Source: an uncultured Flavobacteriaceae bacterium (GTDB lineage Bacteria > Bacteroidota > Bacteroidia > Flavobacteriales > Flavobacteriaceae). Taken from it: a stretch of DNA of 64,000 nt. Position 1 is the stretch's first letter. Each line of letters starts with the position of its first letter. The translations under genes and the position numbers were made by a program. Below the pieces are notes generated by a model. That model was not told where the DNA came from, did not search any database, and was given only the letters and a program-made list of their open reading frames with translations. The DNA is taken from positions 38,400 to 102,399 of the forward strand of contig CASIAE010000004.1 of assembly GCA_949372605.1 (NCBI GenBank), in the 5' to 3' direction. This document shows, in pieces, positions 7,806-53,430 of this stretch.

Positions 7806-7994
7806 TTAATTGGCTCGATTTGAACTTTTTTTGTCAGGAATTCTACCGTAATTACCCGATCCATCATAATCTAGTGTGTCTTCTTGAATCGGTTTTTTAT
7901 GATCATTGACCGATTTCTTCGAATCAATAAATACCCCAGCGACAAACATGGCAAAAACAGCGATTCCGAAACCAAAAATTATTAAAATACTCAT
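7806..7994 (-). CDS. small membrane protein (62 aa)
   Basis: Residues 1-23 (SILIIFGFGIAVFAMFVAGVFI) form one transmembrane helix, followed by a polar cytoplasmic or periplasmic tail rich in Lys and Asp. The start codon overlaps the stop of the preceding 53-aa gene (ATGA), so the two are translationally coupled. No family was recognised. The pair sits between two sulfatase genes on the same strand and may belong to that operon. Confidence 0.5.
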   Translation of the reverse strand: MSILIIFGFGIAVFAMFVAGVFIDSKKSVNDHKKPIQEDTLDYDGSGNYGRIPDKKSSNRAN

Positions 7995-8152
7995 TTTTTA
8001 ATTTGTTTAAAATATCCACCAGCAGCTAAAATTGAAGGAACCCAAATCCCAACATAAAGACCTTCATCATTTTGCCCACTGAACCAAAGATAAATTGAAA
8101 ACAGAAAGCTTAAAAAAGCGGAACCTAATATCAAATAGTCTGAATTTTTCAT
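7991..8152 (-). CDS. small membrane protein (53 aa), too short for the ORF track
   Basis: Reads MKNSDYLILGSAFLSF and ends AAGGYFKQIKK. Two hydrophobic segments (about 6-23 and 33-46) are separated by a polar loop (SGQNDEGLY). Its TGA overlaps the ATG of the 62-aa gene. The two-helix layout with a one-base-overlap partner suggests a small two-subunit membrane accessory; the function is unknown. Confidence 0.5.
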   Translation of the reverse strand: MKNSDYLILGSAFLSFLFSIYLWFSGQNDEGLYVGIWVPSILAAGGYFKQIKK

Positions 8153-10703: not shown

Positions 10704-12842
10704 ATGAAAACACTTAAAAAACGACTTTTCGGATTTTTTAGATTTACAGTCAAGACTTTAAAACTAATGGGGCTGATTCTTTTAATTTCGTGTAAAAATG
10801 AAACTATAGGTGACTTTAAAACTTGGAAGGTTTATAGCGGTGATTCTTCAGGATCAAAATATTCAAATTTATCCCAGATAAATACTACTAATGCAAAACA
10901 ACTTAAATTACTTTGGGAGCACGAGATTTATGATAAAGAAGAAATTCATAAAGATGGGATTCAATGTAACCCAATCATTATAAAAAACCGAATGTTTGTG
11001 ATTGGTCCCGATATGAAAGTACATTCAATTAATGCTGCTGATGGAAATTTGAATTGGAGCTTTGATCCTTTTCCTGAAAAAAAATATTCAGGTAATTCAA
11101 GGGGAGTAACTTATTTTGATGATAGAAAAAATGGAAGACTTTTTTTTGTTGCCGCTTCTTCTCTTTATTGTATTGATGCCATAACCGGAAAAGCCATTTC
11201 CTCTTTTGGAACTGATGGAAAAGTATCACTCAAAAAGGGTTTTGAAGAAAAAGCCGAACAATTATTTATCACTGCTTCTACTCCTGGAATAGTTTATGAA
11301 AACTTATTAATATTGGGTTCTAGAGTATTGGACGGCGCCAATCAAAAAACTATGCCTGGGAATATCAGGGCATTCAATGTTTATTCAGGTGCTATTGAAT
11401 GGGAATTTCATACCATTCCTCGACCAGGAGAGTTGGGTTATGATACATGGCCCACAGATTCCTGGAAAAATGAATACATTTCAGTCAACAGTTGGAGTGG
11501 ATTCACCCTGGATAAAGAAAACGAAATGTTATTTTTTGGGACAGGTTCACCATCTTATGATCACTGGGGTGGCAATCGAATTGGCGATAATCTTTTTGGA
11601 AATTGTATACTAGCACTCAATGCTAATAATGGAGAGCGGATATGGCACTTTCAGACGGTACATCACGACTTATGGGATTACGATATTCCCTGCCCTCCGA
11701 ATTTAGTTGAATTAAAATCAAATGGAAAGCTTTTAAAGGGAATAGCACAACCCACTAAAACAGGTCAACTTTTTGTTCTGGATCGATTTACAGGGTCACC
11801 AATTTATCCTATCCGAGAAGTGCCAGTAATTAAAAGTGATATTCCCGGAGAAGTGGCTTCAAAAACACAACCTTTTACAGTACCAGAACTTATCTATGGT
11901 AAAATAAATATAGATAAAAATTCTCTAAATAAAATAGAAGGCTTCGAAAACCAATCTATCAAAGATTCTCTCCAGAGCATGATTTATGGACAACTTTATC
12001 TACCTCCTTCTCGAAAGCCCACGATAGTATTCCCTCAATTCAACGGAGGAACTGATTGGGGAGGTGCGGCATACGACCCACTAGACAGATCGCTCTATGT
12101 CAATACTAGTAACGAACCTGAATGGTTTTCAATGCTAAATTTATCGAAAGATCAAGAAACATCTTCTTATAATTACGGGAAACAACTTTTTAATTCCAAT
12201 TGTAATGTGTGCCACAATAAAGATAAAAACAACATCCTCAGTCAGCTCAGTTTAAAAGATCAATCTTATATCAAAACTATCCTGAGAAAAGGAAAAGGTG
12301 TAATGCCTGCATTTCCCAATTTTGATAATACATCTCTTGATGCACTCTCTAATTATATCATCGGTATGGGAAAAGACAAAATCATTGAGATCGACAATGA
12401 TGAAAAGTTTTTTGAAATTCCATGGGTAGCAAATGGCCATCTAGAGTTAAAAACCAAAAGTGGATACCCCATTAATGAACCCCCCTGGGGAACCTTATCT
12501 AAGATTGACTTGGATGCCGGAAAAATAGATTGGCAAATACCTTTGGGCACCTATCCAGAACTTGAAAAAATGGGATACCCCCCAACAGGCACATTCAATA
12601 TGGGGGGTCCATTGGTTACAGCAGGTAAATTAATTTTTATAGGAGCTGCTTCGGATGAACGCTTCAGGGCTTTTGATAAATTGAGCGGTAAGCTAGTCTG
12701 GGAGTATCAATTAGAAGCTGGGGGCTATGCAACTCCCGCATCCTATGAAATAAACGGAAAACAATACGTCGTCATAGCAGGGGGTGGAAATGGAAAGCCA
12801 GGAACCAAGGGGGGAAACAAAATCTATTGTTTCGGACTTTAA
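10704..12842 (+). CDS. PQQ-dependent dehydrogenase with inserted cytochrome c domain, lipoprotein
   Basis: 712 aa. The N-terminus is a lipoprotein signal (LILLISCK, Cys about 30). The body is an eight-bladed quinoprotein propeller: W-K-VYSGDSSGSKYSNLSQI, many LDxxTGK-like docking turns (AITGKAISSFG, DRFTGSPIYPI, DKLSGKLVWEY) and the C-terminal AGGGNGKPGTKGG. A c-type haem motif CNVCH sits at about residue 499 with a candidate axial Met in KGVMPAF. This matches membrane-bound glucose-dehydrogenase-type quinohaemoproteins, which oxidise aldoses or alcohols outside the cytoplasm and pass electrons via haem to the respiratory chain. PQQ synthesis genes are not in the window. It opens a same-strand run with the Asp-box protein, aldolase and symporter. 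The substrate is unknown. Confidence 0.88.
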   Translation: MKTLKKRLFGFFRFTVKTLKLMGLILLISCKNETIGDFKTWKVYSGDSSGSKYSNLSQINTTNAKQLKLLWEHEIYDKEEIHKDGIQCNPIIIKNRMFVIGPDMKVHSINAADGNLNWSFDPFPEKKYSGNSRGVTYFDDRKNGRLFFVAASSLYCIDAITGKAISSFGTDGKVSLKKGFEEKAEQLFITASTPGIVYENLLILGSRVLDGANQKTMPGNIRAFNVYSGAIEWEFHTIPRPGELGYDTWPTDSWKNEYISVNSWSGFTLDKENEMLFFGTGSPSYDHWGGNRIGDNLFGNCILALNANNGERIWHFQTVHHDLWDYDIPCPPNLVELKSNGKLLKGIAQPTKTGQLFVLDRFTGSPIYPIREVPVIKSDIPGEVASKTQPFTVPELIYGKINIDKNSLNKIEGFENQSIKDSLQSMIYGQLYLPPSRKPTIVFPQFNGGTDWGGAAYDPLDRSLYVNTSNEPEWFSMLNLSKDQETSSYNYGKQLFNSNCNVCHNKDKNNILSQLSLKDQSYIKTILRKGKGVMPAFPNFDNTSLDALSNYIIGMGKDKIIEIDNDEKFFEIPWVANGHLELKTKSGYPINEPPWGTLSKIDLDAGKIDWQIPLGTYPELEKMGYPPTGTFNMGGPLVTAGKLIFIGAASDERFRAFDKLSGKLVWEYQLEAGGYATPASYEINGKQYVVIAGGGNGKPGTKGGNKIYCFGL

Positions 12843-13060
12843 GAACTCACTAAAGATGATATGGCTAAGGTTTAATAAAAAGACCAATAAGGTTGTCTAA
12901 TATAACAAACCTTTAGTTAAAAGCTAATGATAAAATACAAGTTATAATTATAGTGTGTTTTAAATATATAAACTTATTCAAAAAATTTAAGTTTTAAGTA
13001 TAAATAAGATAATATAAAATCAAAAATCCCAGAACTTAATTAACAAACCAATATCTTAAA

Positions 13061-14320
13061 GTGAAAATAAAAGGAAGAAGACAAAGCTCTGAAAAATCAA
13101 AGTTATCAGGTAAAAAATCATTGAAAATGAAAGAAGATAAAATCAAGGGTCGGAATATTACCAGTGAGATATTTAACATATTTGTAATGACACTAATAAT
13201 GCAAGCTACAACTGGTCTTTCGCAAACGGACGGTATGAAAATACAACATGAAATTGTCTTTGGCGAGGATGATAAATATGGGGGGTGGCCTGCTAATCAT
13301 GGCATATGGACCTGGGGGGATGAAATCTTAGTTGGATTTGTAGAGGCATCCTATAAGGCATCTAATAAAGGGTTGCATAGCTATGATATTTCAACAGCTA
13401 GAAATAAATATGCCAGAAGCTTTGATGGTGGTGTTACTTGGGGAATTACAGATGCTTTTGAAGCTGGTCAGAAAGCATGGGGCTATGATAATAGTATTCC
13501 TCCCGAAAAGGCCGTAAAGCCAAAATTAATAACAAAACCAGTAGTAGATTTTACCAACCCGAACTTTCTTTTAACTTTCTTAAGACACAATAATAATGAT
13601 GGCCCAACTCATTTCTATTATTCAACCGATAAAGGGAAATCGTGGGAAGGTGCATTTAAATTTCCGGATTTAGGAATCTCTGGTATTGCTAATCGAACAG
13701 ATTATGTTGTAGATGGGAAGCAATCGTTAACTGTGTTTGTAACTACAGCTAAATCCAATAAGAAAGAAGGAAGAGTTGCAATGGTAAGAACTGTTAATGG
13801 TGGACTTACATGGAAACTTGAGTCATGGATTACCCATGAACATGGTGGCTTTGATATTATGCCCTCTTCAGTGCGAATTTCCGATACAGAATTACTTACG
13901 ACCATCCGAACCCGAACTGAAGGTGGCTTAGATTTGATATCCGGCTATCGTTCAAAAGACTGTGGGAAAACCTGGAAAAGACTCAAAGACCCTGTTCCTT
14001 ATACGGGAAGTGCAGGTTCTCCTCCAGCTTTACTTAAATTAAAGGATGGCCGCTTAGTTTTGGGCTATATATACCGGAGTGAAAATGGCTCAAGAGCACA
14101 TGTAAGGTTCAGTAAAGACAACGGAGAAACTTGGGGTGATGAAATAACACTCCGGAGTGGAGATGGGGCAAATAGGGATGTGGGATATCCAAAAATAACA
14201 CAAAGATCCGATGGGAAACTAGTAATGGTATACTATTGGAACCACGAACTATTAGAAGGTTCAAAGCCATATAGGTTTATTACTGCCACAATTTTTGACC
14301 CACCCACATTTAAAAATTAA
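13061..14320 (+). CDS. secreted sialidase-superfamily (BNR/Asp-box) propeller protein
   Basis: The tracked start at 13061 is GTG. An ATG at 13127 gives a better N-terminus, leading into a hydrophobic segment (IFVMTLIMQATTGLSQ), so the mature protein probably begins after that. At least five Asp boxes (S-x-D-x-G-x-T-W type) are visible: SFDGGVTWG, STDKGKSWEG, TVNGGLTWKL, SKDCGKTWKR and SKDNGETWGDE, spaced as in a six-bladed propeller. The fold is that of GH33-like sialidases. The classical RIP motif and a full Arg triad are not obvious, so true sialidase activity is uncertain; other glycosidases or lyases use the same fold. It lies between the PQQ dehydrogenase and a NanA/DapA aldolase. Confidence 0.8.
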   Translation: MKIKGRRQSSEKSKLSGKKSLKMKEDKIKGRNITSEIFNIFVMTLIMQATTGLSQTDGMKIQHEIVFGEDDKYGGWPANHGIWTWGDEILVGFVEASYKASNKGLHSYDISTARNKYARSFDGGVTWGITDAFEAGQKAWGYDNSIPPEKAVKPKLITKPVVDFTNPNFLLTFLRHNNNDGPTHFYYSTDKGKSWEGAFKFPDLGISGIANRTDYVVDGKQSLTVFVTTAKSNKKEGRVAMVRTVNGGLTWKLESWITHEHGGFDIMPSSVRISDTELLTTIRTRTEGGLDLISGYRSKDCGKTWKRLKDPVPYTGSAGSPPALLKLKDGRLVLGYIYRSENGSRAHVRFSKDNGETWGDEITLRSGDGANRDVGYPKITQRSDGKLVMVYYWNHELLEGSKPYRFITATIFDPPTFKN

Positions 14321-14338
14321 ATTAATTTGATATCGTAG

Positions 14339-14525
14339 ATGAAATATAGAAACTACTATTAAGCAAATCCTTTATTTCTTTCCAATCCTTAATCTAATGA
14401 TTCTCGCTTCTAAAGAGAAAACCACAACTATTTTGGAAAATGCAAATTCCACCGATATTACAGACAACTTTAGTTTGTCCCCTTTATCAGAACTAGGTTG
14501 TAAACCCAAACAAATTATAACTTAA
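14339..14525 (+). pseudogene. possible frameshifted small exported peptide or 5-prime gene stub
   Basis: Reads MKYRNYY then a stop. Removing one T near 14360 would continue with KQILYFFPILNLMILASKEK and an additional 34 residues up to a TAA at 14523, 61 aa in all. The hydrophobic N-terminus is signal-like. It could be a small secreted peptide or the start of a truncated gene. The evidence is composition only. Confidence 0.25.
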
Positions 14526-14535
14526 AAAATAATTA

Positions 14536-15456
14536 ATGAAACGAATTTTCAAAGGTGTCGTTCCCCCGATGTTAACCCCACTATTATCAAACTGGACATT
14601 AGATTATAATAGAGTAAAAAAATTAATAGATCATTTAATAGATGGTGGCGTGCATGGAATATTTATTCTTGGCACGACTGGCGAATCCACAAGCTTAAGT
14701 TATCAAACCAGAAGAGATTTGATAGAGCGAACGTCTGAATATATTAACGGTAGAATTCCATTTCTGGTCGGTATAACAGATACGTCAATTGAGGAAAGTC
14801 TGAGTTTAGCTTCTTTAGCTTTAGACTCCGGTGCAGAGGCTGTAGTAGCTACACCCCCTTTTTATTTTCATTTGGGACAAGAAGAATTATTTGAATATTA
14901 TTGGGACTTAGCCGATCTATCAAAGCTTCCTATATTTCTGTATAACATGCCCTCAATGACAAAGATCTCAATGGCCGTCGAAACGGCAGTTCGGCTATCT
15001 AAGCATCCGAATATAATCGGTTTGAAGGACAGCTCGGCAAACACAGTATATTTCCAAGCCTTAAAATACGCTATAAAAAGAAAGGATTTCGCTCTTTTCG
15101 TAGGTCCAGAAGAAATTATGGCTGAAACGGTCTTGATGGGAGGTAGTGGCGGTTTCAATGGTGGGGCCAACCTCTTTCCTAAGCTTTATGTTAAAATGTA
15201 TGAAGCTGCAATTGCACATGATTTTGAAACCATAAAGGTGTTACAAAAACAGATATTGGAAATTTCTTCGCTTTTGTATAACGTCGGTAAATTCAATTCC
15301 AGTTATTTAAAAGGGTTGAAAGGGGCGGCCTCACTTATTGATGTATGCAACAACTTTATGGCGCCTCCCTTAAAGCCCTTCATGGAAAAGGAGATGACTC
15401 AAATTGCAAATAGCATGAAACACATCCAATCTCATTTAAAAGACATTTCGCTATAA
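14536..15456 (+). CDS. DapA/NanA-superfamily aldolase (2-keto acid or N-acetylneuraminate lyase-like)
   Basis: 306 aa, full length for the class I (beta/alpha)8 aldolases. It has the carboxylate-binding motif GTTGES (about 45-50), the Tyr of LYNMPS (about 136) and the Schiff-base Lys in NIIGLKDSS (about 164). The Arg that follows YNVPxR in true dihydrodipicolinate synthases is Met here (YNMPSMT), arguing against lysine biosynthesis. The GFNGGANLFP region is usual in catabolic members acting on 2-keto-3-deoxy sugar acids or sialic acid. It lies 44 bp before an SSS symporter gene and follows an Asp-box protein, suggesting uptake and cleavage of an acidic sugar. The exact substrate cannot be read from the sequence. 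Confidence 0.85.
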   Translation: MKRIFKGVVPPMLTPLLSNWTLDYNRVKKLIDHLIDGGVHGIFILGTTGESTSLSYQTRRDLIERTSEYINGRIPFLVGITDTSIEESLSLASLALDSGAEAVVATPPFYFHLGQEELFEYYWDLADLSKLPIFLYNMPSMTKISMAVETAVRLSKHPNIIGLKDSSANTVYFQALKYAIKRKDFALFVGPEEIMAETVLMGGSGGFNGGANLFPKLYVKMYEAAIAHDFETIKVLQKQILEISSLLYNVGKFNSSYLKGLKGAASLIDVCNNFMAPPLKPFMEKEMTQIANSMKHIQSHLKDISL

Positions 15457-15500
15457 AGTGAACTTTAAATCTGAATGACAAATAACGATAACAAAGCAGA

Positions 15501-16976
15501 ATGAATACTATTGACATCATTGTTTTTTTAACCTATACAATTGGAATAGCCCTTTTTGGGAGTTCTTTTTTCAAGAAGAGCAGAACATCTTCGTCTTTTA
15601 CTCTTGGCAATAATGATATTCCAAGATGGGTAGTAACTATGTCAATATTTGCGACCTTTGTAAGTAGCATAAGTTATATCGCTTTGCCCGGTAATGCATT
15701 CCAATCAAATTGGAACGCTTTTGCGTTTAGTTTGTCCTTACCTATTGCTTCTGTAATTGCGGCAAAGTATTTTGTTCCTTTATACCGAAAGATAAATAGT
15801 CCTTCAGCATACACCTTTATGGAACAACGTTTCGGTCCTTGGGCTAGAATTTATGTTTCCCTTTGTTATTTACTCACCCAGTTTATGCGAATAGGAACCA
15901 TCTTATACCTGCTTGCTTTAACGCTGAATGCAGTTACGGGTTGGGACTTAGCGACAATAATTGTTTTTACAGGACTAATAGTGGCCATATATTCTATGTT
16001 GGGCGGTATTTCAGCAGTATTATGGACAGATGCGATACAAGGTGTTATTCTAATTGCGGGCGCATTAGCATGCGCTGCATATATACTATTCTCAATGCCA
16101 GAGGGCCCCGGTCAGGTATTTACAATAGCTGTTGAAAACAAAAAATTTGGATTAGGTAGTTTCGATATGGACTTGTCGAAACCTACGTTTTGGGTCGTTT
16201 TGGTCTATGGAATATTCATAAACATTCAAAACTATGGTATTGACCAGAATTATGTGCAACGTTATATGGCGTCAAAGACTGAAAAGGATGCGAAACGCTC
16301 GGTATTGATAGGAGGTTTAATATATGTTCCTGTTTCAGCACTTTTTCTTTTTATTGGAACTGCCCTTTTTGCTTACTATGATTCAGTGGCTTCACTCCCT
16401 ATGGAACTTCAAGACGTATCAAAGAGCGATAGAGTGTTTCCGCATTTTATTGTAAATGTTCTTCCAGTTGGTTTAAGTGGGCTTTTGGTGGCATCAATTT
16501 TTGCCGCTGGCATGAGTACTATTTCAACTAGCTTCAACAGTTCCGCTACTGTTTTTCTTACTGATTATTACAACAAATATTTTAAGAAGACCGCTTCAAA
16601 TAAAGAAAGTCTGAGGGTATTATACATTTCGTCGCTAATAATTAGTGTTGTAGGCATCGCAATCGCCATTGCGATGATAAATGTTAAAAGTGCCCTAGAT
16701 GCCTGGTGGATGCTCGCCTCTGTTTTTAGTGGAGGCATGTTGGGGCTTTTCCTTTTGGCGGTTTTTTCTAAAAACAAGAATGTTGTGGGAGCTATAGTAG
16801 GAGTAACTATAGGATTAACTCTGATTCTTTGGTTAAGTCTCTCCAGAGTTTTCTTGGACGAAGACGCCCTCGGTTATAAGTTCCACACTTATCTAACTAT
16901 CGTTTTTGGTACTGCGGCTATTTTTTTAGTAGGGTTTCTGATTTCTCTTTTTTCATCAAAAAAAGACAATAATTAA
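15501..16976 (+). CDS. SSS-family sodium:solute symporter
   Basis: 491 aa with about 13 hydrophobic helices. The N-terminus has the family pattern IVFLTYTIGIALFGSSFF, then TLGNNDIPRWVVTMSIFATFVSSISYIA, which holds the first sodium-site helix. The mid-region GGISAVLWTDAIQGVILIAG and the later ASIFAAGMSTISTSFNSSATV are classic SSS signatures. Family members import sugars, sialic acid, amino acids or carboxylates with sodium. Adjacency to the aldolase (44 bp) points to an acidic sugar. It is probably the last gene of the plus-strand unit, as the next genes are convergent. Confidence 0.9.
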   Translation: MNTIDIIVFLTYTIGIALFGSSFFKKSRTSSSFTLGNNDIPRWVVTMSIFATFVSSISYIALPGNAFQSNWNAFAFSLSLPIASVIAAKYFVPLYRKINSPSAYTFMEQRFGPWARIYVSLCYLLTQFMRIGTILYLLALTLNAVTGWDLATIIVFTGLIVAIYSMLGGISAVLWTDAIQGVILIAGALACAAYILFSMPEGPGQVFTIAVENKKFGLGSFDMDLSKPTFWVVLVYGIFINIQNYGIDQNYVQRYMASKTEKDAKRSVLIGGLIYVPVSALFLFIGTALFAYYDSVASLPMELQDVSKSDRVFPHFIVNVLPVGLSGLLVASIFAAGMSTISTSFNSSATVFLTDYYNKYFKKTASNKESLRVLYISSLIISVVGIAIAIAMINVKSALDAWWMLASVFSGGMLGLFLLAVFSKNKNVVGAIVGVTIGLTLILWLSLSRVFLDEDALGYKFHTYLTIVFGTAAIFLVGFLISLFSSKKDNN

Positions 16977-17435
16977 GTCCGGAAAATAGTTTCAAAACAT
17001 AACAATTCATTAGCATACATCTAATTTACGTAAAAATCGAAAAAAAAGTATACGAAAGCGAAAAGAATCAATTTATCTTATATCCTTGAAAAGTTAAAAT
17101 TAACCACTTAATTAAGTGGATACCTTATTCATTCGACAAAACCATTTTTCTCCTGTCAGGTAATAGTTAGCCGATGATATTCGAAACCATGATAGTCATG
17201 TTAACCCTTCATTATTTGAGAAAAAAGAGTAGTTGGGTAATCATATAATCTGAATAGAAGAAGAAACCCTCTGCTATTCGGACTTTACCTAAAACAGATT
17301 AAAAACTGAGGTAATATATTCAAGATAGATTATTTACAGGCAGAATCATTATGTTAGTTCGATAATTGCCAGACGCAAGTTTGAATTATTTACATTTACT
17401 TGGTATGTTGGTTTTTGTGATGTATTCAGGGGCTT
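16977..17435. other. intergenic region between convergent SSS and Nramp-like genes
   Basis: 459 bp, AT-rich. I see no coding frame. The only marked structure is the 16-bp palindrome listed separately. It is unusually long for a gap between convergent genes and may contain decayed sequence. Confidence 0.4.
17104..17119. repeat. perfect 16-bp palindrome CCACTTAATTAAGTGG
   Basis: A perfect dyad with no loop, so it looks more like a protein-binding site than a terminator. It lies between convergent genes, not in an obvious promoter, so its role is unclear. Confidence 0.4.
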
Positions 17436-18677
17436 CTATGTAAATTCAAGAATTGCAAACCAGGTTGATATAAAAGAAAAAAGAATAACAGCAATAATGG
17501 ACAAATTTTCACTAATCCCGGCCACATGAGCATCCATCAGCCTTTTTTTGTTTATTAAAATAAAAATAGGAATCGCAACCGCTGGTAAAATACAAGCCTG
17601 AAAAGCTTGTGAAAATATCATAAGGGCCGGTGGCCGGTGTTCCATAAAAACTGTTCCGAATGCAAATAGCAAAGTAAACAATATGATTAATCGTGATTGT
17701 GGAGTACGTATGTCTCTTGATGTGCCTCTAAAATCTGCAATAAGCCAGGGGGCAATCAAAACAATTGGGAATATAGTGGATATACCAGCCCCAGCAATTC
17801 CAATAATTAATATAAAAGCTGCAAACTTGCCCCCAATCGGCTCAAAAAGATGAATCATTTCCACAGTATTTTCCAGCTTCAATCCTGATAAATGAAGTGT
17901 GCCTGCGGAAACTGCCATTATTATTCCACTTAGAAAAAGCATCATGGAGGCAGATACCAAAGAATCTTTTTTTTCTTTTTTTAAATCATTTACTGTCCAT
18001 CCCTTCTCAACTACAATGGTACTTCTGATGATAAAAACGGCCGCCGAACATGTTGTGCCAGAAATGGCTGCGACCAAACCAAAAGCTCCGGGTGTATCTG
18101 GAATACTTGGAACAATCCCTGCTATTAATGTCGACAAACTAGGTTTTACCATTATAAAAACAACCAAAAAGGACAGTCCCATGAGAGCTACCAAAACAGT
18201 TAGAACTTTCTCGAAAAAACTGTAGCGGCCAAACAAAATCAGGATATATAAAATAACAGAAAAAAATAAAATGATCCATCCTCTGTGAATAAATAGATCA
18301 TTAAATCCGATTCGAATCCCTTCTTGTACTAAATCGGCGACAATACCCATTACTCCCATCAGGGCTAATAACTCGCCAATAATAAGCGTTAATATAATAT
18401 ACATTGAAAGTACCGAGCCCCATTTTAATTCTTTTTTAAAATTGAATAAAGCGGTATTTCCCGTTACCAAGGTCACTTTTCCATATGCAACCATTAAAAT
18501 ATATGTAAAAAAACAAGAAAGTAGTAATGCCCAAAACAAACTCATCCCGTGTTCAGCTCCCGTTTTTGCCATTGTAGTTACGCTTCCCGTTCCTATGTTG
18601 TAACCTATAAGAAACAGACCTGGACCTAAGGCGCTTAGACCTATTATAATTTTTCTGTGTATTTTATAGTTTTTCAC
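17436..18677 (-). CDS. Nramp-related membrane transporter lacking canonical metal motifs
   Basis: 413 aa with about 11 transmembrane helices. The first helix region GPGLFLIGYNIGTGSVTT aligns with Nramp TM1, but the metal-binding DPGN signature is replaced by GYNIGTG. In TM6 the usual MPHN is replaced by SGTTCSAAVFIIRST. This puts it in a divergent Nramp-like clade whose cargo may not be Mn/Fe. It lies 72 bp downstream of the NagB-type gene on the same strand, likely one operon, so a role tied to sugar or amino-sugar use is plausible. Automated pipelines would call it a divalent metal transporter; I doubt that. Confidence 0.7.
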   Translation of the reverse strand: MKNYKIHRKIIIGLSALGPGLFLIGYNIGTGSVTTMAKTGAEHGMSLFWALLLSCFFTYILMVAYGKVTLVTGNTALFNFKKELKWGSVLSMYIILTLIIGELLALMGVMGIVADLVQEGIRIGFNDLFIHRGWIILFFSVILYILILFGRYSFFEKVLTVLVALMGLSFLVVFIMVKPSLSTLIAGIVPSIPDTPGAFGLVAAISGTTCSAAVFIIRSTIVVEKGWTVNDLKKEKKDSLVSASMMLFLSGIIMAVSAGTLHLSGLKLENTVEMIHLFEPIGGKFAAFILIIGIAGAGISTIFPIVLIAPWLIADFRGTSRDIRTPQSRLIILFTLLFAFGTVFMEHRPPALMIFSQAFQACILPAVAIPIFILINKKRLMDAHVAGISENLSIIAVILFSFISTWFAILEFT

Positions 18678-41600: not shown

Positions 41601-41709
41601 CAGAGATTAGGTTATATACTCATTTCACCAGCATATCCCCAAAGGAAAATATATTTATTTTGAAGGGGTGGGGTGTTAAATTGAGAGTTTTAGGTTGGAT
41701 TTTTTGGGT
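41601..41709 (-). repeat. dispersed repeat I, copy D (full length, inverted)
   Basis: Plus strand reads GGTTATATACTCATTTCACC, GCATATCCCCAAAGGAAAAT, then GAAGGGGTGGGGTGTTAAAT and TTGAGAGTTTTAGGTTGGAT. It is the reverse complement of copies B and C. One base is missing in the T-run relative to them. Confidence 0.85.
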
Positions 41710-41711
41710 TT

Positions 41712-41885
41712 ACACCCAAATAAAAGGGGGTAATTGGAACCCAGATATCCTAAGTAAAATAGGTGGTTTAGAGCCATACGACTCATAAAATCCTTGGGCA
41801 CACTAATTTCAAGCACTTTTTGGCTTTACATATATCTAAAGTCCTCAGGTTTAGGCTATAACATCTTTACAGAAATAATGCAAGA
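41712..41885 (-). repeat. dispersed repeat II, copy 1
   Basis: Includes AAATAGGTGGTTTAGAGCCA, CCTTGGGCACACTAATTTCA and GGCTTTACATATATCTAAAG, then AGTCCTCAGGTTTAGGC. Copy 2 is at 46190; the first 90 bp also recur, diverged, at 58140. Non-coding as far as I can see. It directly follows repeat I here and at 58.1 kb. Confidence 0.75.
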
Positions 41886-41981
41886 AAAATACATAAAGAC
41901 ATTAATTTTGCGCATTGGAATAAGATTCTTTGTTAGCTAATTGCAAAACAATTCTTTATATTAATTGAACTATACATAATA

Positions 41982-42905
41982 ATGAATTTTAGAAGTTTAG
42001 CATCAATATTTTCTTGTGTCTTAGTTATACTTGGACTAATATTATATTCCCCTGATATTCCAGTTTCAGATTTAAAAAGTAAGTACGCTAATCAACATTC
42101 AAAATTTATTAAAATTGACGGAATGAATGTTCATTATCGTGACCAAGGGAAAGGTGAGACTATTATTTTATTACACGGGACAGGGGCTTCTTTGCATACT
42201 TGGGACAAATGGACAGATAAATTAAAAAATAGCTATCGCGTAATTAGATTGGATCTTCCAGCATATGGATTAACTGGGCCTCACCCTGAGAATAAATACT
42301 CTATTTCTGAATATTCTGAATTTCTTAACTCATTTGTAAATCAACTAAAACTAAATAATTTTATTCTATCAGGAAATTCACTTGGAGGATCAATCTCATG
42401 GTACTATGCTTCTATTTACCCTGAAAAGGTTCAGCTTTTAAACTTATTAAGCCCTGGAGGATTTTTAAAAAAAGACAACAGAAGTCCTTTAGTAATTAAA
42501 CTAGCAAGAGCACCTGTAATTAATAAAATACTCAGATACGTTACCCCTAGATTTTTCATAAAAAATACTTTAAAAGAAGTTTACTATGACAAAAACAAAT
42601 TAACAGATCTTAAAATTGATACCTATAGGGATATGATTTTAAGAGAGAATAATAGGGAATCGTTTATTAGCAGATCGCTTTTAAAACCTAAAGACCATAC
42701 GAATAGGCTCAAGCTAATTTCAGCTCCTACGCAAATTATATGGGGGAATGAAGACGCTTGGATACCTGTTTCTAATTCTAAGTTTTTCAAGGATGCAATA
42801 GCAAACGTTAGGATCGACATAATGCATGAAACTGGTCACATTCCAATGGAAGAAAGACCATTAGAAAGCTTGGATTTATTATTAAATTTTATAAATAGTA
42901 ATTAA
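41982..42905 (+). CDS. alpha/beta hydrolase, membrane-anchored
   Basis: 307 aa. N-terminal membrane helix (ASIFSCVLVILGLILYS). The fold motifs are IILLHGTGASLHTWDKW (oxyanion HG), nucleophile elbow SGNSLGGSISW (Ser about 131), PTQIIWGNEDAWIPVS (Asp) and HETGHIPMEE (His). It belongs to the general alpha/beta-hydrolase-1 family (haloperoxidase/epoxide-hydrolase-like); the substrate is unknown. It is flanked by repeat I copies D and E. Confidence 0.85.
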   Translation: MNFRSLASIFSCVLVILGLILYSPDIPVSDLKSKYANQHSKFIKIDGMNVHYRDQGKGETIILLHGTGASLHTWDKWTDKLKNSYRVIRLDLPAYGLTGPHPENKYSISEYSEFLNSFVNQLKLNNFILSGNSLGGSISWYYASIYPEKVQLLNLLSPGGFLKKDNRSPLVIKLARAPVINKILRYVTPRFFIKNTLKEVYYDKNKLTDLKIDTYRDMILRENNRESFISRSLLKPKDHTNRLKLISAPTQIIWGNEDAWIPVSNSKFFKDAIANVRIDIMHETGHIPMEERPLESLDLLLNFINSN

Positions 42906-43034
42906 CCCAATAACTATAATATTGATTCTCCGTTTTCATCTGTAGTTAGAACTTTATAGATATAATTCACGAAGAAGTTGAGCGCCAATAACCAATTTAC
43001 CAGCTCAATTAATTAATGATAGGTTTTTAAAAGT

Positions 43035-43105
43035 AATTAGGCTACACAACCATTTCACCAGCGTATCCCCAAAAGGGAAATAGACTTATTTTGAAGGGGT
43101 TTAGT
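43035..43105 (-). repeat. dispersed repeat I, copy E (partial, inverted)
   Basis: CATTTCACCAGCGTATCCCC, AAAAGGGAAATAGACTTATT, then TTGAAGGGG. The outer part (GGGGTGTTAAATTGAGAG) is missing; the unit runs straight into the ORF at 43091. Confidence 0.8.
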
Positions 43106-43423
43106 CTTAAAAATAAGTTTGAATTAAACGATAGAATAGAAGGTGTAATGTTTTTGGACAAACACCTAAGGAGGGTTTTTAGTTGTAATGTTGTAGAAAA
43201 GGAATATAATATTAGTTTGACTTCTAAAGAAAAACCATTACGTTGTACTGAGAAATTTATTTATAATGACTTGAAACATAAAATAGTCTTCCCTAACTCC
43301 AATGGTTTAATTAAAATTAATGGAAATGATTTTGAAATTTTAATTGTTGTAGTGATTGATGATTCATACAAGTCTGGATATATAAATAAGACACTAAAGA
43401 AGGACTTTATCAAAAAAAGTTAG
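43091..43423 (+). CDS. hypothetical protein starting inside repeat I
   Basis: 110 aa. No signal peptide or family recognised. Beta-rich, with LTSKEKPLRCTEKFIYNDLK and IKINGNDFEILIVVVIDDSY. Its first codons (TTGAAGGGG) lie in repeat copy E, so its original 5-prime end was probably lost, and this may be a fragment. Confidence 0.4.
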   Translation: MKGFSLKNKFELNDRIEGVMFLDKHLRRVFSCNVVEKEYNISLTSKEKPLRCTEKFIYNDLKHKIVFPNSNGLIKINGNDFEILIVVVIDDSYKSGYINKTLKKDFIKKS

Positions 43424-43550
43424 GGAAAACAATAACTGTAAAACTTGATTGTATATGAGTAAAAAATATTCGGTTGGAAGTTTATATGTCGCATTAGTCG
43501 TTATTTGACTATTTTTATGTAATTGACTACTTTCATGTAAAAAATCATGA

Positions 43551-43838
43551 ATGGTTTTCAAAATCAGACTCAATTACGGGTTAGAGACCATCTTAAAACT
43601 AGTTCCTGTTGATTATCTATTAAAATCAAATAACCTTTCTCAAATTGGATTTATAGCACAAGACCTAAAACCGATAGTTCCAGAGGCAGTAAATGGAACA
43701 GAAGGAGACATAGAAAAGGGAGAAACCTTGGGAATAACTTACACCACATTAATCCCAATACTAACGAAGGCAATTCAGGAGTTAAAAAAAGAAAATGAAG
43801 ACCTCAAAAAACGAATTGATGCGTTAGAGAATAAATAA
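43551..43838 (+). pseudogene. C-terminal fragment of an S74 (intramolecular chaperone) tail-fibre-type protein
   Basis: 95 aa. LNYGLETILKLVPVDYLLKS, SQIGFIAQDLKPIVPEAV and ITYTTLIPILTKAIQEL, then a coiled-coil ending IDALENK, match the endosialidase-type (peptidase S74) chaperone domain that ends phage tail fibres and bacterial surface proteins. The catalytic Ser-Asp region upstream (SDxRLK) is absent, so this is only the 3-prime end. The parent protein was a long surface fibre. Confidence 0.7.
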
Positions 43839-43899
43839 TCCAAATTGATATCATAAAACAGTAACGTCACTAATAAGCTTTACTGGCGTTTTCTTTTAG

Positions 43900-43946
43900 A
43901 CCACAGGCATATCCTCTTCAGTAAGTTCAGGTATTTCTAGTCTTCT
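43900..43946 (-). repeat. dispersed repeat III (orphan C-terminal peptide tail), copy 1
   Basis: On the minus strand it reads LEIPELTEEDMPVV-stop. Other copies: 45451, 46031, 46143, 53330. No upstream gene body is attached. Confidence 0.65.
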
Positions 43947-44081
43947 TAAATAAGTCAGATGGAGAATATTCACTCGTAAAGAAAGCAGTGTAATATATCT
44001 TAGAACATTATTTACAGGGAGAGTAGCTGATAAGGCTAGTTTAAATTATTCCCTATATTTAAACATCTAATAATCAACATT

Positions 44082-44834
44082 ATGAAAAAAGCTTTATTAA
44101 CTAACCCTGCATTCAGATATGTTTTTGAGATATTTGTGATTGTATTCTCTGTAACGATATCTTTTTTCATACAAGACGTTTTAAACGATAGAGAAAAAAT
44201 AGAACATAAAAACAAGGGACTTAAAGGCGTATTGAGAGACCTCGAACAAGACAAAAAGAATTTTGTTTATACATCTAATGTAATTTCAACTAGAATTAAA
44301 TTGACAGAAGATATTTTGGAAGGGAATACATCAAATCAAAATCTTCTGTCAGTGATGTTGACTTGGGGGTTTACAGGTCAAAATTCAAATTTTAAATCTC
44401 TAATCTCAACAGGAGCTGTTGAATATATCGATAATGATTCTTTGACTTTGGAATTAACTAAATATTATGAGCAGTCTTATAAAGTGTTAAACGATACATC
44501 CGAACAATATGTAAAACACTATTTGGAACTTTCAGGATTTATGAGAACAAATTATCCTGTAAATTCAATGGACAAATTGCAAATTAAAAATGGTAAAATA
44601 GATTATGATGGATTTCAAAATGTAATTTCATTTAAATACAATGATAAAACTATCAATCAGCTTCAGGATGATTTTAGATTTAATAATTATCTATACCAAT
44701 TAAAAAAAACCAAATTATTTTATTTAATGTTTTATGAAAATGCCATAAATCAAATTGACAAATTATCAAAAATAATTATGACTGAATTAAACCTAAAAGA
44801 ACCAATCAAATCCATTAAGCATAAAAACCCATAG
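44082..44834 (+). CDS. DUF6090-family membrane-anchored protein
   Basis: 250 aa. An N-terminal helix (YVFEIFVIVFSVTISFFIQD) is followed by LNDREKIEHKNKGLKGVLRD and a helical soluble part, including ISTGAVEYIDNDSLTLELTKYYEQ. This arrangement matches the DUF6090 family found in Bacteroidota. The function is unknown. It has the leader TAAACATCTAATAATCAACA just before ATG, shared with other genes here. Confidence 0.65.
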   Translation: MKKALLTNPAFRYVFEIFVIVFSVTISFFIQDVLNDREKIEHKNKGLKGVLRDLEQDKKNFVYTSNVISTRIKLTEDILEGNTSNQNLLSVMLTWGFTGQNSNFKSLISTGAVEYIDNDSLTLELTKYYEQSYKVLNDTSEQYVKHYLELSGFMRTNYPVNSMDKLQIKNGKIDYDGFQNVISFKYNDKTINQLQDDFRFNNYLYQLKKTKLFYLMFYENAINQIDKLSKIIMTELNLKEPIKSIKHKNP

Positions 44835-44995
44835 GATTAAAAGCTTCAAGTAGCCTTAAAGAATCCTTTAACAAAAATGAAACAAGCTACAAATGATGTA
44901 AGTGAAGACTTGCTGTTTTTTATTTATTAAGCTCTTGCATTTGTTTTTTTTAATTGTTTTTTTATGTTTGAATATTATTAATAATTCAATTACAA

Positions 44996-45430
44996 ATGAT
45001 TCCTATAAAGTTACTTATGCATATAAATGCTCCCAAAGAAGAAGTTTTCAATGCTCTTACTGAGTCAGATAAACTTTCGAAATGGTATACTACTATTGTT
45101 AAAGGAGAATTTAAGTTAAATGAAATTATCACTTTTGAATTTATAAATTTTGCAGAATTTAAATTTAAGGTAATTGCATTAATTCATAATGAATCTGTTC
45201 ATCTTGAAATTATAGAGTCTGGGTTAGATAATGTTGGACATGTAATGAAATATGAATTAGATGAAAACAATGGGAAAACAAGGGTTCGCTATACCTATGA
45301 AGGCTTTGCCGAAATGGATGATTCTTATTCAAATATGAATTATAGTTCTGCTAAATATTTAGAAAGTTTGAGACAGTATTGTCAAACAGGAAATGGTGAG
45401 GCTTTTGGCTCTTCTTCTTATAGAGCTTAA
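44996..45430 (+). CDS. SRPBCC/AHSA1-like ligand-binding protein
   Basis: 144 aa. LMHINAPKEEVFNALTESDKLSKWYT is the first strand and helices of the START/AHSA1 (Bet v 1-like) fold; later strands are visible (VHLEIIESGLDNV, TRVRYTYEGFAEMD) and the C-terminal helix SAKYLESLRQYCQTG. Such proteins bind hydrophobic ligands or assist Hsp90-like chaperones; the ligand is unknown. Cytoplasmic. Repeat III lies 20 bp after its stop. Confidence 0.75.
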   Translation: MIPIKLLMHINAPKEEVFNALTESDKLSKWYTTIVKGEFKLNEIITFEFINFAEFKFKVIALIHNESVHLEIIESGLDNVGHVMKYELDENNGKTRVRYTYEGFAEMDDSYSNMNYSSAKYLESLRQYCQTGNGEAFGSSSYRA

Positions 45431-45450
45431 TTTGAATTAAAATAATTGAC

Positions 45451-45488
45451 TAAATCATCGGCATATCATCTTCATTAAGTTCGGGAAG
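45451..45488 (-). repeat. dispersed repeat III, copy 2
   Basis: On the minus strand: LPELNEDDMPMI-stop. It lies 20 bp after the SRPBCC stop codon, in convergent sense. Confidence 0.6.
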
Positions 45489-45558
45489 AAAAAAACTGAG
45501 TAGAGATATTGTAGAGTTTACTTTATATTAGCATTCTATTAATCATAAATCAAATAAG

Positions 45559-45990
45559 ATGAACGAATTTGAAATATTAAGTGTTTCGCAAGCACAATTC
45601 CAACAGAACGCTTCCTATACTATAGCAGTTTTTATTTTATTAGCAATAAATTTTTATCTGGTTAGAAGAAGTCGTGAATTAAATTTTCCTACTTATGGTA
45701 AAGCAATGATATCTTTCTTCTCATTAATATCTGTTTATGGTGGAATTCAAGTTGCTACATTTTTAAGAGCATTTCAGCATAATACTGCGCTTAATTTAAA
45801 GCAACTTAAAGAATCAGGAACTCCAATATCTGAAGTAAGCGAGGCATCAATTGAGTTTTTTGGTAATCCTTCAGCTCCATTTAGCGCTGGAATACCTGAT
45901 ATTCCTCAAATTATTTTTTATGTAGTTATTCTATTAATTTTAATGGTAGGAATTTGGGGCAAAGCACCAGATGGCGCATACACTAAATAA
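45559..45990 (+). CDS. hypothetical multi-helix membrane protein
   Basis: 143 aa with three predicted membrane helices (YTIAVFILLAINFYLV, ISFFSLISVYGGIQVATFL and IPQIIFYVVILLILMVGIWG). Short polar loops, one with NPSAPFSAGIPD. No family recognised. It is followed 40 bp later by repeat III. Confidence 0.55.
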   Translation: MNEFEILSVSQAQFQQNASYTIAVFILLAINFYLVRRSRELNFPTYGKAMISFFSLISVYGGIQVATFLRAFQHNTALNLKQLKESGTPISEVSEASIEFFGNPSAPFSAGIPDIPQIIFYVVILLILMVGIWGKAPDGAYTK

Positions 45991-46030
45991 TTTCATTTCA
46001 AAACTTTATCTTTATGATAGGTTTTTTTAT

Positions 46031-46182
46031 GTCATCGGCATATCCTCTTCAGTAAGTTCAGGTATTTCTAGTCCTCTGGTGAAGCAAAAATTTTTGAATC
46101 AATTTTTCATTCTTAGTGAATAGTAATCGGAGGTTTTTTTTAAATCACAGGCATATCATCTTCAATAAGTTCAGGAGGAAAA
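46031..46182 (-). repeat. dispersed repeat III, copies 3 and 4 in tandem
   Basis: Two tails read on the minus strand: one ends GLEIPELTEEDMPMT-stop, the other FPPELIEDDMPVI-stop. Between them CCTCTGGTGAAG...ATCGGAGGTTTTTTTT forms a long-loop hairpin with T-run on the plus strand. The same block is found at 53330-53430. Confidence 0.65.
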
Positions 46183-46189
46183 GTGAAAT

Positions 46190-46325
46190 AGGGGGTTTAG
46201 AGCTATACGACTGATAGAACCCTTGGGCACAGTAGTTCCAACCACTTCTTGGCTTTACATATATCTTAATATATTTAAAGTCCTCCGGTTTAGGCAATAA
46301 CATATTTATAGAAATAATACATAGA
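46190..46325 (-). repeat. dispersed repeat II, copy 2
   Basis: AGGGGGTTTAGAGCTATACG, CCTTGGGCACAGTAGTTCCA, GGCTTTACATATATCTTAAT and AAAGTCCTCCGGTTTAGGC. It matches copy 1 with about 12 extra bases (ATATATTTAAAG area). Confidence 0.75.
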
Positions 46326-46900: not shown

Positions 46901-48457
46901 ATGAACATAAATATAGTAAACACTTTTACATCCGAATTACCTGCAGACTCTAATTTAGGAAACTCAAGAAGACAAGTTACCGAGGCAGTATTCTCTTATG
47001 CAAATCCGAAGAAACCGAAAGCCCCAAAAGTGATGCACGTTTCGCAAGAAATGGCTTTTGAATTAAATATTTCCGAAGAAGAAACAACGTCAGAATTCTT
47101 TAAAAATATCTTTACAGGAAATGAAGTATACCCTAAGACAAAACCATTTTCTATGTGTTATGGCGGACATCAATTTGGAAATTGGGCGGGACAATTAGGA
47201 GACGGAAGAGCCATTAACTTGTTTGAAGTTGAACATCAAAACAAAAATTGGAAAGTACAATTAAAGGGTGCTGGCGATACGCCATATTCAAGAACTGCAG
47301 ATGGTTTAGCTGTTTTGCGTTCCTCTATTAGAGAATATTTATGCAGTGAAGCAATGTATCATTTAGGTGTTCCAACAACTCGTGCTTTATCATTAAGTTT
47401 GTCTGGAGATGATGTTTTACGTGATATTCTATATGATGGGAATCCAGCATATGAAAAAGGCGCAATTGTTTCCAGAATTTCTCCGAGTTTTTTACGCTTT
47501 GGGAATTATGAAATTTTTACAGCTAGAAAAGATGTGGAAAATTTAAAAAGTTTGGTTGATTACACAATTAAACATCATTTTTCACATTTAGGAGAACCAT
47601 CGAAAAAAAACTACATCAACTTTTTTGCGGCCATTTCAGAACGCACATTAGAGATGATTATTCATTGGCAACGCGTAGGTTTTGTTCATGGAGTTATGAA
47701 TACCGATAACATGTCCATTTTAGGTTTAACGATCGATTTTGGACCTTATGGATGGTTAGAAGGTTTTGATTTTGGCTGGACTCCAAACACAACAGATCGC
47801 GTACATAAAAGATACCGATATGGAAATCAACCAAATATAGGTTTATGGAATTTGTATCAATTGGCAAATGCGATATATCCAATAATTCAAGAAGTTGAAC
47901 CTCTAGAAACCATTTTAGAAAAATATAAAAATGATTTTGAAGAGAAATCTTTACAGATGATGAAATCAAAATTAGGGTTGTTTACTTCAGATAAAAATGA
48001 TGTAGAATTGATTCAGAATTTAGAAGACAACTTACAATTAGTAGAAACAGATATGACTATTTTCTTTAGAAACTTGAGTCGTTTTACTAATAAAAAAGGA
48101 AGTTTACAATTGATTGAAAAAGCATTTTATGATTTTAATGCTGTTGCTAAAGAAGTGAAAAATAAATGGGCGTTTTGGTTTTTAAATTATGAGATTAGAC
48201 TTCAGCAAGAAGAAATTTCATCCGAAGAAAGAAAACAAAAAATGGATGCTGTAAATCCTAAATATGTATTAAGAAATTACATGTCTCAATTAGCGATTGA
48301 CGCAGCAGATGAGGGAGATTATTCTTTAATTGACGAATTATTTAACCTTTTAAAAAAACCATATACTGAGCAATCAGAAAATGAAAAATGGTTTGCAAAA
48401 AGACCAGAATGGGCAAGAGATAAAGTGGGTTGTTCTATGTTATCTTGTAGTTCATAA
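46901..48457 (+). CDS. selO: SelO/YdiU-family protein adenylyltransferase (pseudokinase fold)
   Basis: 518 aa, normal for bacterial SelO. Motifs: CYGGHQFGNWAGQLGDGRA (ATP-binding loop), LKGAGDTPYSRTADGLAVLR, SSIREYLCSEAMYHLGVPTT, then HGVMNTDNMSILGLTIDFGP (catalytic Asn and DFG metal-binding Asp). The C-terminal Cys-containing tail VGCSMLSCSS is typical; in eukaryotes the penultimate region carries selenocysteine. SelO transfers AMP to Ser/Thr/Tyr of redox-related proteins and helps survive oxidative stress. Monocistronic, with a long upstream gap. Confidence 0.95.
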   Translation: MNINIVNTFTSELPADSNLGNSRRQVTEAVFSYANPKKPKAPKVMHVSQEMAFELNISEEETTSEFFKNIFTGNEVYPKTKPFSMCYGGHQFGNWAGQLGDGRAINLFEVEHQNKNWKVQLKGAGDTPYSRTADGLAVLRSSIREYLCSEAMYHLGVPTTRALSLSLSGDDVLRDILYDGNPAYEKGAIVSRISPSFLRFGNYEIFTARKDVENLKSLVDYTIKHHFSHLGEPSKKNYINFFAAISERTLEMIIHWQRVGFVHGVMNTDNMSILGLTIDFGPYGWLEGFDFGWTPNTTDRVHKRYRYGNQPNIGLWNLYQLANAIYPIIQEVEPLETILEKYKNDFEEKSLQMMKSKLGLFTSDKNDVELIQNLEDNLQLVETDMTIFFRNLSRFTNKKGSLQLIEKAFYDFNAVAKEVKNKWAFWFLNYEIRLQQEEISSEERKQKMDAVNPKYVLRNYMSQLAIDAADEGDYSLIDELFNLLKKPYTEQSENEKWFAKRPEWARDKVGCSMLSCSS

Positions 48458-53329: not shown

Positions 53330-53430
53330 CGTTCACATCCTCTTCAGTAAGTTCAGGCATTTCTAGTCCTCTGGTGAAGTAAAAAGCTTTGAATCAGTTT
53401 TTGATTCTTAGTAAATAGTAATCAGGGGTT
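53330..53430 (-). repeat. dispersed repeat III, copy 5
   Basis: Begins at the stop codon of the DUF285 fragment. ATCCTCTTCAGTAAGTTCAG, CTAGTCCTCTGGTGAAGT, then ATAGTAATCAGGGGTTTTTT match the block at 46031-46140. The peptide tail is altered here (ELTEEDVNVL). Confidence 0.65.

Follow-up and report, generated by a model that had tools for sequence, protein, structure and literature searches.

The interval between positions 41601 and 46325 of a 64,000-nucleotide stretch from an uncultured Flavobacteriaceae bacterium (contig CASIAE010000004.1 of assembly GCA_949372605.1; the whole stretch is hereafter the window) is probably an array of mobile gene cassettes that is decaying and belongs to an integron-like system built on a tyrosine recombinase and a short element that we name C1. 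A sequence-only reading had seen a local gene-capture process here, and the comparisons reported below support it. Our best reading of the data is a capture system that resembles integrons but arose independently. We further lean toward regarding it as a third kind of bacterial cassette capture, separate from both integrons and XerCD modules, in which the C-terminal codons of the recombinase would be the site, each cassette would re-create the C-terminus and stop codon, and single genes would in this way be stockpiled and exchanged among marine Flavobacteriales. Throughout, G denotes a genome and L a stretch of a genome; G000 is the window assembly, a flavobacterium (1.39 Mb, 69.7% complete).

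C1 in the window and in other genomes

All six plus-strand open reading frames (ORFs) of the sequence-only reading were confirmed; its DUF6090 label for 44082-44834 was borne out by neither Pfam nor NCBIfam. The cassette genes and C1 copies of the array are as follows.

43551-43838, plus strand: Peptidase_S74 C-terminal fragment, cassette gene (PF13884, E=4e-8)
43904..43928, plus strand: C1, exact core match, after the S74 fragment gene
44082-44834, plus strand: 250-aa protein, cassette gene, no Pfam or NCBIfam family
44836..44860 (approximate, by eye), plus strand: decayed C1 boundary, separating the 44082 gene from the 44996 gene
44996-45430, plus strand: AHSA1/SRPBCC protein, cassette gene (PF08327, E=2e-9)
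45458..45482, plus strand: C1, 3 mismatches, after the SRPBCC gene
45559-45990, plus strand: 143-aa putative membrane protein, cassette gene, no family
46035..46059, plus strand: C1, 2 mismatches, after the membrane-protein gene
46148..46172, plus strand: C1, 1 mismatch, ending a 113-bp unit without a gene
53330..53354, plus strand: diverged C1 beyond the interval, 4 mismatches, downstream of a DUF285 gene

C1 is a recombination-site-like element, and is the repeat (there numbered III) that the sequence-only reading had placed 20-60 bp beyond three stop codons; the distances are close to this, at 66 bp (stop at 43838), 28 bp (45430) and 45 bp (45990). It has a core of 25 bases, CAGGCATATCMTCTTCAGTAAGTTC, within a block of conservation of about 38 bp. 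A comparison of 154 copies from 13 genomes places this block from -7 to about +32, with no conservation further out, and reveals a T-rich, terminator-like tract upstream. The decayed boundary near 44836 corresponds in position to an intact C1 in L146 of G045.

The repeats are real and occur well above chance: about 50 places in the window's own genome match the interval, C1 at up to three mismatches has no match in 20 mononucleotide-shuffled windows, and a control with the reversed pattern gave no match in any genome. C1 is nonetheless rare, being present at up to one mismatch in 3 of 398 genomes of the order. Among 84,980 species, 36 stretches carry an exact match, all of them uncultured flavobacterial or other Bacteroidetes records, plus Candidatus (Ca.) Arcticimaribacter forsetii. 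In the named collection, C1 is carried by records labelled uncultured Flavobacteriaceae, MS024-2A and Ca. Arcticimaribacter; the latter two are names in use for the NS5 marine group (PMC9122927). The element lies on chromosomal contigs. A scan of 2.9 million viral contigs revealed no copy, phage and plasmid collections contain nothing that matches the interval, and an Rfam search returned nothing.

Architecture of C1 arrays

At 90 of 111 sites the gene upstream of C1 is on the same strand, with the site a median of 66 bp from its stop codon. Adjacent sites no more than 4 kb apart are co-oriented in 77 of 89 pairs (p=9e-13 against an expectation of 0.5; p=4e-4 against 0.7). The clearest arrays (G041 C1:155-163 kb, G042 C2:950-956 kb and G044 C2:279-283 kb; in coordinates of this form C1 or C2 before the colon is the contig) alternate between gene and C1 site, mostly with a single gene per site. 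The cassette genes are unrelated to each other, 101 of them yielding matches to 50 Pfam families, of which even the commonest is represented just four times.

Exchange at C1 and movement between species

Several cassettes of the window recur elsewhere. The 143-aa membrane-protein gene has a 95% DNA match in G018 that includes the following C1, the 44082-44834 gene has an 89% match in the same genome over part of its length, and the AHSA1/SRPBCC cassette is common to G045 (82%) and G008 (78%); at the locus of the Peptidase_S74 fragment, G018 has an ORF of 496 aa. For C1-to-C1 cassettes in general, 47 of 80 have relatives elsewhere, several of which are bounded by C1 on both ends in both places. 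Whole cassettes are found in other species at 90-100% DNA identity and in a different order, and those complete from one C1 to the next are shared at 91-98%. For example, G018 and G041 share 1.6 kb at 98%, G043 and G041 share a cassette at 98%, and G042 and G043 share 543 bp at 100%. Between the distant genomes compared, xerC is 61-69% identical (G000 was used in this comparison in place of its close relative G018). Cassettes so much more alike than xerC have therefore been transferred horizontally.

The sequence-only reading had proposed that gene content would differ among close strains with the repeat marking the breakpoints, and this is the pattern found. In G041 and G045 (xerC 92.8%) a 6.6-kb anchor, 94.7% identical, adjoins entirely different cassettes. 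Nor is gene order conserved: G018 is 91-96% identical to the window genome in shared flanks, and its homologues of the window cassette genes lie on separate contigs and in another order.

Pairs of C1 copies that share an upstream gene resemble each other left of the core and fall to background level at +22..+28. With one pair taken per family (28 independent families), shared-upstream pairs match at 0.76 over -20..-8, compared to a background of 0.37 (p<0.001). Shared-downstream pairs (19 independent families) match at 0.61 over +29..+45, compared to 0.37 (p<0.001), while their left flank stands at 0.38 against a background of 0.36. The pattern persists when distant species alone are considered (17 upstream and 8 downstream families), with a weak leftover similarity on the right in the shared-upstream pairs (p about 0.03). 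Ancestry switches inside the C1 core, between +2 and +21, and variants of C1 go along with the upstream gene.

A tyrosine recombinase gene that ends in C1

The antisense of C1 encodes the last residues and the stop codon of a tyrosine recombinase gene (...MGHSSINVSLTYLRGLEIPELTEDDMPVV, then stop). Most C1 copies carry on the opposite strand an ending like PELTEDDMPVV and a stop; these endings are the convergent tail peptides without a gene body that the sequence-only reading had remarked upon. The peptides are genuine and have no gene body in the interval, and the body was located in other stretches. Remnants in the window are:

43899..43958, minus strand: recombinase 3'-end remnant (LTYLRRLEIPELTEEDMPVV, then stop), antisense to C1, a tail peptide of the sequence-only reading
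46033..46083, minus strand: recombinase 3'-end remnant (FTRGLEIPELTEEDMPM), antisense to C1

In L091, YSFRHSGAIDIFKRTGSITKLQKAMGHSSINVSLTYLRGLE comes before the C1 tail and represents a tyrosine recombinase's catalytic end. Used as a search query, this end led to intact genes in relatives:

L220 (G009): intact recombinase, 347 aa
L219 (G006): intact recombinase, 348 aa
L217 (G014): intact recombinase, 348 aa
L213 (G377): intact recombinase, 352 aa
L215 (G120): 3' part of the recombinase, at a contig end
L041 (G004): recombinase with an altered end

The hosts belong to three families of the order. In all but the last of these stretches, C1 lies within the last ~12 codons of the gene. A convergent cassette with its own C1 directly abuts the recombinase 3' end in L220, L219 and L215; in L213 a C1 array lies on the 3' side of the gene, beyond three same-strand genes, and no C1 array was seen beside the recombinase in L217. 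The left edge of the conserved C1 block coincides with the recombinase stop codon. At 147 C1 sites to which no intact recombinase gene is attached, a stop codon occupies this position in 69% of cases, compared to 0-10% at other in-frame offsets.

The recombinase matches the Pfam Phage_integrase profile (PF00589) at 37-44 bits, above the cut-off, and the catalytic residues Arg207, Lys235, Arg298, His321 and Tyr330 are invariant in all aligned sequences, XerC included. The C1-encoded tail follows the catalytic tyrosine. A structure model (mean predicted local distance difference test score, pLDDT, 78; predicted template modeling score, pTM, 0.48) gives residues 333-347 a pLDDT below 50, and its predicted fold, that of a tyrosine recombinase, resembles the structures of Tn1549 integrase, XerA, IntI and lambda Int. 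ORFs ahead of the recombinase start (L041:3128-3316, L217:8788-8988 and L220:3700-3906) have translations that resemble reads through tRNA 3' fragments, which were not called by ARAGORN; possibly these fragments represent an old tRNA target of the element.

A model of cassette capture

In the model that we propose, a cassette would consist of one gene, or sometimes two, preceded by a leader and followed by a terminator and a single C1, and the platform would be a tyrosine recombinase gene of ~350 codons, the last codons and stop of which are C1. The recombinase, which we infer to catalyze exchange at C1, would recombine the C1 at the 3' end of its own gene with that of a cassette, presumably in the form of a circle, and would also join the C1 sites of an array to each other, DNA being exchanged inside the core. 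An inserted cassette would read convergently toward the recombinase gene, its half of C1 supplying the codons for DDMPVV and the stop. The geometry thus implies that, with the crossover inside the core and the cassette bringing its own final codons and stop, the C-terminus and stop of the recombinase would be rebuilt at each insertion. Directly oriented sites would permit excision and shuffling, and cassettes would pass between species as well. The array in the window would have been built by the C1 recombinase before the enzyme was lost, unless its gene simply failed to assemble.

A number of observations weigh against this model. The sequence-only reading had recommended seeking a tyrosine recombinase gene linked to a copy of the repeat. 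Such a gene exists in relatives, with C1 as its 3' end, but was not found in the window assembly (70% complete). Searches of the C1-richest relatives with PF00589 recovered XerC/XerD only (G043 and G045) or XerC/XerD together with an unrelated integrase (G041). Given that PF00589 would score the C1 recombinase at ~40 bits, the missing matches in C1-rich genomes count against its presence there; such assemblies may hold orphan arrays, by analogy with integrons, or rely on another enzyme. The recombinase family has Tyr in place of the His of the usual HxxR motif, the dyad symmetry of C1 (16-nt arms around a 7-nt center) is not significant (P=0.23), and certain gene copies break outside C1. Furthermore, the majority of assemblies are metagenome-assembled genomes, in which repeats break contigs and may mis-join them.

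Alternative explanations

Because a site-specific crossover and homology exchange confined to C1 give the same pattern, the main rival remains RecA-type or microhomology recombination between dispersed repeats, with C1 merely the homology that they share. Homology-driven exchange of otherwise unrelated cassettes would also switch within their sole shared sequence; the longer repeats (A/B, and C1 with C2, described below) are shuffled too, with certain breakpoints outside C1, and in several C1-rich assemblies no recombinase was found. We nevertheless consider it unlikely: the core is just 25-38 bp and near-identical between species whose xerC has diverged as described above, the sites are strongly co-oriented, and C1 is the exact 3' end of a tyrosine recombinase gene that cassettes abut.

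A second possibility is that C1 serves as an atypical dif-like site for the host XerC/XerD, in the manner of the Acinetobacter plasmid dif modules (PMC13141974). XerC and XerD are the sole tyrosine recombinases above cut-off in G000, G043 and G045, yet the proposal is quite improbable, given that C1 matches up with the end of the coding sequence of a different tyrosine recombinase and is by inspection unlike the probable chromosomal dif, TCTATAATTWAYATTATGTAAAATA, identified at G043:C2:698225, G044:C1:900202, G041:C6:136888 and G040:C1:1178442.

Several repeat kinds accumulate in variable islands, often near tRNA genes, and C1, A, B and C2 might accordingly all be dispersed elements akin to miniature inverted-repeat transposable elements (MITEs) or repetitive extragenic palindromes (REPs), lying after terminators in gene-poor islands where gene turnover has other causes. 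This is highly improbable: C1 variants accompany the upstream gene, ancestry switches inside C1, and conservation ends at 38 bp, so that there is no two-ended element. The chance that the system is a true integron (IntI plus attC) or an integrase-less remnant of one is negligible, despite matching array logic (one small gene per site, co-orientation and shuffling): no integron integrase scores above cut-off in 40 relatives, three full-length C1 recombinases reach 19.7-25.4 bits against a TIGR02249 cut-off of 265, and C1 shows no attC-type hairpin, its fold energy being no better than that of shuffled sequences (z 0.07 for DNA, 0.7 and 0.9 for RNA).

Other enzymes were considered as the agent. 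Serine recombinases are absent from G000, G042, G044 and G045. Fragments of integrases of the phage or integrative and conjugative element type lie beside C1 in L128, L036 and L138; they were rejected as passengers, because they have relatives in other genera without C1 nearby. A 92-aa HUH-like ORF (PF23343, below cut-off) was likewise set aside as a mobility enzyme, since it occurs in several arrays and is not general. This ORF, a weak REP_ORF2-G2P match (L136:5180-5458, L138:5755-6033, L159:7247-7522 and L163:5960-6235), is possibly a remnant of single-stranded DNA phage replication.

Other features of the window and of related arrays

The left part of the interval, from 41.6 to 43.1 kb, carries other repeats (A/B), and its membership in the C1 array, which the sequence-only reading had assumed, found no support. 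The remaining features are:

41605..41880, plus strand: A, B and Bx repeats
41982-42905, plus strand: alpha/beta hydrolase ORF (PF00561, E=5e-24)
43036..43110, plus strand: partial A repeat
43091-43423, plus strand: ORF without a family
43960..44087, plus strand: C2 repeat, the leader that runs from C1 up to the 44082 start codon
46182..46318, plus strand: partial B and Bx repeat, directly after the last C1

A, B and Bx are probably repeats I and II of the sequence-only reading. These families and C2 are longer than C1; C2 also precedes other genes in arrays of the same genome. Repeat A (~103 bp; window:41605-41704) has ~30 copies, including some in L012, L036 and L038, and surrounds variable islands; left-only and right-only copies occur, and its left half-core, CACCAGCGTATCCCC, is like that of C1. 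SelO (46901-48457) lies immediately to the right of the interval and has DNA matches in other genera only, with none among the same-genus relatives searched.

Two duplications were noted. A 560-aa putative glycoside-hydrolase-like gene is present in two arrays of the same genome at 97.9% DNA identity (window:53569-55566 and L010:6969-8953), and two copies of a 1.5-kb gene segment, 99.3% identical, lie within unrelated flanks (L009:16001-17497 and L011:5584-7079). Small basic proteins of GRPKGSKN type, of no known family, recur in the arrays (window:35433-35759, L010:6333-6605, L139:9781-9993 and L145:7900-8187). Some arrays begin beside tRNA genes (L010:13571-13645, L035:3390, L128:9117-9191 and L125:7563-8018), and the tRNA-Arg/thioesterase/nitronate monooxygenase locus holds different arrays in G000, G018 and G040. 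In L125 a block of phage-like ORFs (11018-17156), which could be a small provirus or island, stands between a C1 array and a tRNA-Gly/tRNA-Thr pair present in two copies, at 7861-8018 and 17410-17567.

Significance

Integrons are the textbook route to stockpiling single mobile genes. Very few are known from Bacteroidetes; IntegronFinder 2.0 lists a complete one in Salinibacter ruber (PMC9024848). If our reading is correct, cassette capture has evolved more than once, with another enzyme and another site, in the widespread marine NS5 group and its relatives. The conversion of a gene to a cassette would become testable, as C1 sits right after the terminator, and so would the spread of small accessory genes in ocean bacteria. 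A recombinase that targets its own last codons, restored by each cassette, would be an unusual design.

Comparison with known systems

Our literature search found no earlier description of the C1 cassette system. Tycheposons and tRNA-adjacent islands are marine, employ a tyrosine recombinase and carry variable cargo near tRNA genes; C1 arrays differ in needing no tRNA target and in exchange at C1 between cassettes. The tandem accretion of cis-mobilizable and integrative mobilizable elements offers a further parallel, in that integrase-less, att-bounded segments pile up in tandem in a site-specific manner (PMC5704250). Unlike these, C1 cassettes are mostly of a single gene with one site each, many to a locus, and the 3' end of the recombinase gene itself serves as the resident site. 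In the dif (pdif) modules of Acinetobacter plasmids, short sites of double-stranded type bound small gene modules that shuffle (PMC13141974). C1, by contrast, is not dif-like, lies on chromosomal contigs, is mostly co-oriented, and is carried by a dedicated recombinase gene.

With integrons the system shares a tyrosine recombinase platform, cassettes that mostly hold one gene, carry one site apiece and point the same way, the occurrence of arrays lacking an integrase, and horizontally spreading cassettes. It differs in that the C1 recombinase is not IntI, that C1 is not an imperfect hairpin, and that the cassettes carry a terminator-like tract ahead of the site. The spacing from the catalytic Lys to the HxxR motif is ~75 residues in XerD and ~109 in IntI1. 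In the C1 recombinase 63 residues separate Lys235 from Arg298, and judged by this spacing it lacks the IntI-specific insertion. Where an integron has attI beside intI, the analogous C1 is embedded in the last codons of the recombinase gene itself, toward which the cassettes converge.

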